Positions 20,021 through 21,079 of a DNA stretch of 37,634 nucleotides are shown in pieces. Source of the DNA: Fidelibacterota bacterium (GTDB lineage Bacteria; Fidelibacterota; UBA2242); the NCBI GenBank assembly GCA_016783665.1, contig JADHWC010000014.1, positions 1 through 37,634 on the forward strand. The letters run 5' to 3'. The position numbers and the translations under genes were made by a program. The notes under the pieces are model-generated. The model ran no database searches, was not told the origin of the DNA, and saw only the letters and a list, made by a program, of their open reading frames with translations. Every line of letters starts with the position of its first letter. Position 1 is the stretch's first letter.

Positions 20021-20266
20021 TTAACATAATATCACAAAATTGTCACATAATACCCTTGATGGTTTCGTCCCATAGGGATCTCTTTGAGATAAAAAGTGAT
20101 TACCTGCCCGCCCTCCTTCGGAGGAAGCAGGCGGGTAAGTGTCATTCTGAGAGAGGCATCCCGACTCGTCGGGAAAGAATCGGGTTGGACAGTTGCGATA
20201 TGTCATAAGCGATCCTTCAGTCATACTTCCTTCAGGATGACAGTTTTGATACTTTTTACGATTCAA
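20021..20266. repeat. Composite of dispersed palindromic repeats
   Basis: This is the main content of the 640-bp gap upstream of alaS (19880-20519). It holds a GC-rich hairpin (CCCGCC...GGCGGG, about 20108-20135, with CTCC-TTC-GGAG inside). A GTCATTCTGAG unit with CATCCCGACTCGTCGGGA follows, then a CGATCCTTCAG...CAGGATGACAG unit. These resemble the repeats near 6432-6545 and 37396-37480. No gene is supported. I see nothing recognisable in the AT-rich remainder (19880-20020 and 20267-20519). Confidence 0.65.
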
Positions 20267-20519
20267 TCACCCTTGATACTAAAAAGGAACTTAATGATTT
20301 CACGAGTATAGATTCCCCCAATAAACCTCAACCCTATATTTCAATCGACAGAAATATACAAAATTTATCATAATTATTTAGGTTCTTTCTATTTTTCAAT
20401 GGGTCGATATACTAAAAATAAAAAATCTGATTATCCAATATCCAACCCCAGTGTAATAAAAGAAAAAGAAGATTTCACGGGGCAGGCACGGAACATCCAA
20501 TATCGAAGTATTTTTGTCA

Positions 20520-21004
20520 CTATTGCTCCTTTTTCTTTTTCGCTGTATCAATGCTTTTGAAAAGTATTGAAATCAACTCATCTGTCTCCTGTAATAAAGG
20601 GGACAATTTTGTTGAAGGTTGAATTAATTTTGCCTGAACTATTATTTTCAGCCACACTTCAGTCTCTCTCAACTCTTTTCCCGTAAGGGATTCCTGCGGA
20701 ATAAACCCACTTTCAATTTATTCACCCCGTTAGATATTTCGTTTAAAGTATTGTTTTCTGCTAATTTATTAATTATCTAACGGGGTAAATAAAATCAGCC
20801 TTTGATTCAGCACTTTTGCCACAGGCATTCCTTCGGAAGAGCCTCACCGTAATTTGCAGCGGGTGAAGTTCCGCTTCTTAATATTTGAGAAGAGATATGT
20901 CTACCTGCTTTTGTTTCAGGCAGTTGTTCTGAAACATTAATAATTCTAACCGCATAATCAATAAACCGTTCCTGTAAATCAAACTTTTTTTCTTTTTCAT
21001 TCAT
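20520..21004 (-). pseudogene. Four-helix bundle protein gene (S23/IVP type), disrupted by insertions
   Basis: The 5' part encodes FIDYAVRIINVSEQLPETKAGRHISS and RSGTSPAANYGEA, the N-terminal half of the 23S rRNA-intervening-sequence four-helix bundle family (about 120 residues). The frame then breaks. Fragments AESKADFI, NKLKV and ELRETEVWLKIIVQAKLI, ending IDTAKKKKEQ, reappear downstream in other frames. Between them lie three extra segments: about 22 nt (TTCCGAAGGAATGCCTGTGG), a 77-bp inverted-repeat element, and about 30 nt (TTCCGCAGGAATCCCTTACGGG). Removing these restores a normal-looking protein. The N-terminal 65 codons still form an open frame from ATG. Members are helical and of uncertain function. 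Confidence 0.75.
20717..20793. repeat. 77-bp inverted-repeat element
   Basis: Arms TTTATTCACCCCGTTAGATA and its complement (20774-20793) match at 19 of 20 positions and flank an AT-rich 37-bp spacer. The element sits between codons of the four-helix-bundle gene. It looks like a small non-autonomous insertion or a long hairpin. No transposase is present. Confidence 0.7.
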
Positions 21005-21079
21005 ATTTGGAAATTTCGTGTTGGCTATTGGACATTAACTTACCCACTCAATTCTCAGAAGAGCCATTATTTATTGCAT

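Follow-up and report, generated by a model that had tools for sequence, protein, structure and literature searches.

Twin-hairpin micro-elements and a hairpin MITE-like insert in a multicopy four-helix-bundle gene of Ca. Neomarinimicrobiota

An Interrupted Four-Helix-Bundle Gene

The window, a stretch of 37,634 nucleotides, belongs to a Ca. Neomarinimicrobiota MAG (G000) and carries on its minus strand a four-helix-bundle gene that is interrupted by three insertions of 22, 65, and 23 nt, here called A, M, and B (Table 1). A straight read-through breaks the frame, and this copy (WIN) is unreadable as a single frame. Once the inserts are excised, the coding pieces sum to 375 nt, or 125 codons, which are open and match the family, as an earlier note on this DNA had claimed. 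An intact sister copy, L022 (L-numbers denote compared loci), scores 64.4 bits against PF05635 (cut-off 33.8) and 94.1 against TIGR02436 (cut-off 24); the first coding piece of the window gene was also searched against Pfam and NCBIfam and supports the assignment.

The insert borders were fixed through empty sites, by alignment with the copies of a genus mate, G002, and with the one truncated copy that G001 contributes. L021-L023 are free of all three inserts, L019 has M only, L020 has B only, and L017 has A and M. For each insert, the uninterrupted copies have a precise empty site, free of target duplication. The three insertions proposed earlier are thus real, and the empty sites that were to be sought in homologous genes exist for all of them. 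The first insert, given as about 22 nt, has exactly that length, and the third, given as about 30 nt, measures 23 nt from its empty sites. The 77-bp inverted repeat is present at 20717-20793, but the insert proper is only 65 nt, the outer TTTATT/AATAAA bases being mostly host sequence. The advised check for target duplications found none; we found instead a preference for sites directly 5' of AAA(G).

Table 1. Features at the locus and insertion sites in four-helix-bundle gene copies
Feature	Position	Strand	Evidence or copies
Multicopy cassette, gene with imperfect terminal inverted repeats	20381..21066, ends approximate		shared flanks
Fourth insertion, 41 nt (CCCCAGTG...CACGGGGCAGG), hairpin, in the cassette's inverted-repeat flank	20446..20486		alignment
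Four-helix-bundle gene (23S rRNA IVP-type, PF05635/TIGR02436)	20520..21004	-	translation, exon parsing, Pfam/NCBIfam
Four open coding pieces of the gene	21004-20839, 20816-20786, 20720-20702, 20678-20520	-	exon parsing
Insert A, 22 nt, TTCC-GAA-GGAA-TGCC-TGT-GGCA, then AAAG	20817..20838	-	empty site L019-L023/L166; fold; family
Insert M, 65-nt hairpin MITE-like element, CCCCGTTAGAT...ATCTAACGGGGTGAA	20721..20785	-	empty site L020-L023; fold; ends elsewhere
Insert B, 23 nt, TTCC-GCA-GGAA-TCCC-TTAC-GGGA, then AAAG	20679..20701	-	empty site L017, L019, L021-L023, L187; fold
Site N	after codon 5		L039, L069, L196
Site A	after GEA		WIN, L017, L038, L039, L069
Site M	after DFI		nine parsed copies
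Site B	before KELRE		WIN, L020, L034, L039, L117, L209
Site M2, larger hairpin	near codon 34		L039, L069

Inserts A and B Are Twin Hairpins

Inserts A and B (minus strand, TTCCGAAGGAATGCCTGTGGCA and TTCCGCAGGAATCCCTTACGGGA) share the consensus TTCC-nnn-GGAA-TnCC-nnn(n)-GGnA, a back-to-back pair of mini-hairpins in which the second half is approximately an inverted copy of the first. Each folds as DNA into two adjacent hairpins with a stability that is unremarkable for so short a sequence (z -1.7 and -1.3), and some family members, e.g. TTCCGAAGGAATCCCTTCGGGA, fold best as a single 7-bp hairpin. Covariation was counted over 45 distinct sites at the one arm position whose two partners the pattern leaves unspecified. 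This position is Watson-Crick paired (C-G, G-C, T-A) in 42 of the 45, a value never reached in 20,000 shuffles (mean 24.7, maximum 35). An Rfam search gave only a sub-threshold microRNA match over the hairpin, which was dismissed as chance.

The likeness of the first and third inserts, already noticed from the window, exceeds chance, because the combined pattern hits G000 only at A and B and the reversed pattern hits it nowhere; the two form one family. Activity in G000 is at most putative, the tight pattern having no copy there beyond these two. The active mini-repeat mechanism suggested by the earlier note is therefore borne out as far as dispersal in relatives goes, but not by further strict-pattern copies in G000, where the small inserts come close to being unique.

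Insert M and Other Hairpin Repeats

Insert M belongs to a separate hairpin family, CCCCGTTAGAT...ATCTAACGGGGTgAA, and the 77-nt repeat around it folds with z = -5.4. A genome-wide search for this element, as had been advised, found the same ends elsewhere in G000 and in the family; 7 of 16 family genomes have elements that begin and finish with CCCCGTnAGAT/ATCTnACGGGG. M-type elements in four-helix-bundle genes have related interiors, and those elsewhere have different ones. Like MITEs, insert M has terminal inverted repeats, is non-coding, and exists in several copies with varying interiors; unlike them, it shows no target-site duplication at its empty sites. It represents a separate MITE-like family without visible duplication.

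The 41-nt insertion is missing here from the sister copies, some of which hold it in the opposite flank. This hairpin sits at the corresponding position of one or the other inverted repeat in different cassette copies, in the left flank in L017, L020, L022, and L030, and its placement suggests inversion or conversion between cassette repeats. Further hairpin repeats lie at 20105-20180 of the window (cctgcccgcc-ctccttcggaggaag-caggcggg and tcccgactcgtcggga), and similar CCCGA..TCGGG hairpins recur in L034, in L015, and inside the gene copy L209.

A Multicopy Cassette with Recurrent Insertion Sites

The gene sits in a cassette with the core CCAATATCCAACACGGAATATCCAA and the ends GGTTC.. / ..GAGCC, of which copies with shared flanks number at least seven in G002, plus one truncated in G001. 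The cassette itself looks mobile. It measures about 0.55 kb without inserts, has truncated derivatives, and contains no other gene (L017-L023, L030, L018).

Fifteen four-helix-bundle copies from three genera were parsed, and L209 was inspected additionally. The same insertion sites are occupied in all three genera (Table 1), and the repeated insertion into one small gene that the earlier note remarked on has to be read accordingly: the gene is a multicopy cassette whose sites are filled in other copies and genera as well. By eye, L209 also contains hairpins of further families, one of them at site A. The phylum has many intact genes of this subfamily. Because some interrupted copies have close intact sisters, the insertions look recent and recurrent and, judged from these divergences, young relative to the gene: dS is 0.013 between L034 and the intact G001:C494, 0.07 between L196 and G008:C74, and 0.21 between L039, with five inserts, and G012:C316. 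Such recurrent occupation of homologous sites needs stronger targeting than an adjoining AAAG alone explains. Some of this pattern, particularly inside the 95%-identical group, can be put down to gene conversion among paralogues or to precise loss.

Dispersal and Target Preference

Copies of the twin-hairpin pattern are present in 11 of 16 genomes of the GTDB family, with none for the reversed-pattern control. A stricter pattern matched 58 stretches in 84,980 species genomes, 56 of them in the FCB superphylum; sorted by record title, these are 14 in Neomarinimicrobiota (one counted there as G008, a member of the window's family), 30 in Bacteroidota-type genomes including Balneola, and 12 in Ignavibacteria/Chlorobiota. 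The other two, in Atribacteria and Lacrimispora, fail in arm pairing and were taken as chance. A search of viral contigs for the element returned no copies.

Among the sites screened, no convincing interrupted genes were found beyond the four-helix-bundle genes and an IS982-like transposase, the remaining flagged cases being weak open frames. L051 was discarded as an interrupted gene, since the pattern there is ordinary coding sequence of what fits an intact dehydrogenase-like gene. By eye, the micro-element lies inside an apparent IS982-like transposase gene in L037, L047 (G007), and L048 (G008), at nearby places in two species.

The element preferentially stands directly 5' of AAA/AAAG (CTTT on the opposite strand). 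With flanks unselected, one flank is AAAG at 15 of 45 sites and AAA at 28 of 45, against per-strand backgrounds of 0.7% and 2.7%, respectively. In the set for which AAAG was required, the 5' flank, unselected by the pattern, is enriched in C at -1 and -3, and typical contexts are CAC^AAAG and TTG^AAAG (^, insertion point), often within heptamer-like repeats. Tandem repeats of this kind (GTTGAAAG, AAATTTG) surround the elements of L086, L125, L121, and L208 and may be likened to the heptameric repeats that reportedly occur near cyanobacterial small dispersed repeats (SDRs). An excess of hairpin-loop targets was rejected, as flank complementarity is not significantly above shuffles.

Ungapped empty counterparts could be aligned for both window sites and for other four-helix-bundle sites. 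An intergenic repeat gave a further filled and empty pair (L045 versus L030, CCAC^AAAGACAC), and the REP repeat of L139 is present in both filled and empty copies.

Proposed Mechanism and Search for an Enzyme

Taken together, we consider it likely that A and B are very small non-autonomous mobile elements and that M is a hairpin MITE of another kind, the three lying in a multicopy cassette. Comparison among MAGs shows the dispersal, precise insertion, target preference, and paired arms of the twin hairpins. A and B would be copies of one dispersed, target-specific element of 22-23 nt, built of two adjacent mini-hairpins and inserting precisely, with no target duplication, preferentially directly 5' of AAA/AAAG; A, M, and B would all have landed in the four-helix-bundle cassette. 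The element may move as a folded single strand. From its anatomy it would be handled in trans, most likely by a single-strand HUH/Y1 (IS200/REP-type) transposase, our best guess since that chemistry is marked by hairpin ends, a fixed short target, and the lack of duplication.

Y1 transposases (PF01797) occur in 10 of 10 carriers tested and also in 5 of 14 control genomes. A cognate mobilising gene was sought among the carriers' Y1 loci and was not found: 28 of 30 loci have no flanking element, and in the other two the element lies inside the loop of the RAYT's own REP. We thus rejected the RAYT as the element's own transposase, as the carriers have Y1 genes but the flanking pairing is absent. 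One such region, L139 (G001:C342, 1-1260), holds a Y1 (RAYT-like) gene among REP repeats with the hairpin loop CCACCAT^AAATGG; the twin-hairpin element fills three copies of the loop and leaves one empty, and the G002 homologue L146 (G002:C95) has the element too.

Alternative Explanations

Most of the 15 parsed copies, including one that carries five inserts, have open coding pieces, which raises the question of whether the inserts are taken out or passed over when the gene is expressed, as by a micro-intron or a ribosome-bypass-like process, so that the interrupted genes stay functional. Identical sites in three genera would fit, as would the strongly synonymous divergence of the copies and the private substitutions of WIN, L017, L019, and L020, which are 15 synonymous to 4 replacement where about 78% replacement is expected without constraint. 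However, near-identical intact sisters exist, so that most of this selection can predate insertion, and L034 differs from its intact sister by 1 synonymous and 4 replacement changes, as without constraint. An exon frameshift in L017, a stop in L031, and a deletion in L069 likewise speak for young dead copies, and the near freedom of other genes from inserts among the screened sites would be odd if the inserts were harmless. On these sequence comparisons, removal or skipping seems highly improbable. If it were true, genes with up to five inserts would still make protein, and the twin hairpins and the 65-nt hairpin would be the smallest bacterial elements of an intron- or bypass-like kind.

A single ancestral insertion of A, M, and B, spread or lost by recombination among paralogous cassettes with the elements otherwise inactive, is an unlikely but more serious competitor. 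The 95%-identical group has copies with A M B, A M, M, B, or no insert, a distribution that looks like reassortment, and its M copies show just 2-3 differences over 65 positions; moreover, A inserts are of the TGCC type and B inserts of the TCCC type wherever seen. Yet genes whose synonymous divergence is saturated have the same sites filled, their close sisters having them empty, A is identical in the window and L069 despite differing flanking bases, and dispersed intergenic copies exist. Replication or template-switch errors at quasi-palindromes, in place of mobility, might also be invoked for elements so short and partly palindromic, several of which are found within tandem heptamer-like repeats (GTTGAAAG, AAATTTG, CACAAAG) or hairpin loops; the common consensus TTCC..GGAAT.CC..GG.A recurs, however, at unrelated sites across FCB phyla and is underivable from the local flanks, which makes this origin quite improbable.

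Significance and Relation to Known Systems

If A and B are mobile elements as we propose, they would count, at 22-23 nt, with the smallest units of mobile DNA described so far; their target is defined, their ends are precise, and they range from Neomarinimicrobiota to Bacteroidota, Ignavibacteria, and Balneola. They would explain frame-broken genes that annotation pipelines would label random pseudogenes, and the many filled and empty pairs make it directly testable how hairpin-only elements get moved.

Cyanobacterial SDRs are about 21-27 nt long. Those of Nostoc/Anabaena are reportedly the subject of Elhai et al. 2008. The twin hairpins agree with this type in being 20-30 nt, dispersed, and near-constant in sequence, and in precise insertion with empty homologous sites. 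SDR5 is described as inserting into HIP1 after its third base and before its fourth (PMC4390886). Precise insertion at a short target, as described there, is shared, and so is the tiny size; the target (AAAG here, HIP1 there) and the phyla differ, as the sequence probably does.

Palindromic elements of Rickettsia, 100-150 bp long, likewise lie inside protein genes, but they are in frame, whereas the present elements are 22-23 nt and frame-breaking. The hairpin elements of Allomyces and sponges span 26-79 bp. The account in PMC2800124 gives the Allomyces mtDNA double-hairpin and sponge repetitive hairpin elements as pairs of neighbouring hairpins that occur in both genes and spacers with no flanking duplications. 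These features are like ours; those elements are mitochondrial, larger, and GC-rich, and we know of no link.

REPINs consist of two palindromic units in inverted order that fold as one hairpin or two leaves, with a short tag (GTAG/CGTC) beside the hairpin, and are mobilised by RAYTs (PMC3116915). The consensus and folds of our element show the same inverted unit pair, the same one-hairpin or two-leaf folding, and an adjoining short tag. It differs in measuring 22-23 nt overall, in having no spacer, and in its tag, AAA(G)/CTTT in place of GTAG or CGTC; copies flanking a cognate RAYT gene were absent from the 30 Y1 loci. We do not claim REPIN membership, because neither that tag nor RAYT pairing was found. 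By analogy, the closest descriptions would be the cyanobacterial SDRs, the Allomyces double-hairpin elements, and REPINs, the twin hairpins being like a minimal REPIN.
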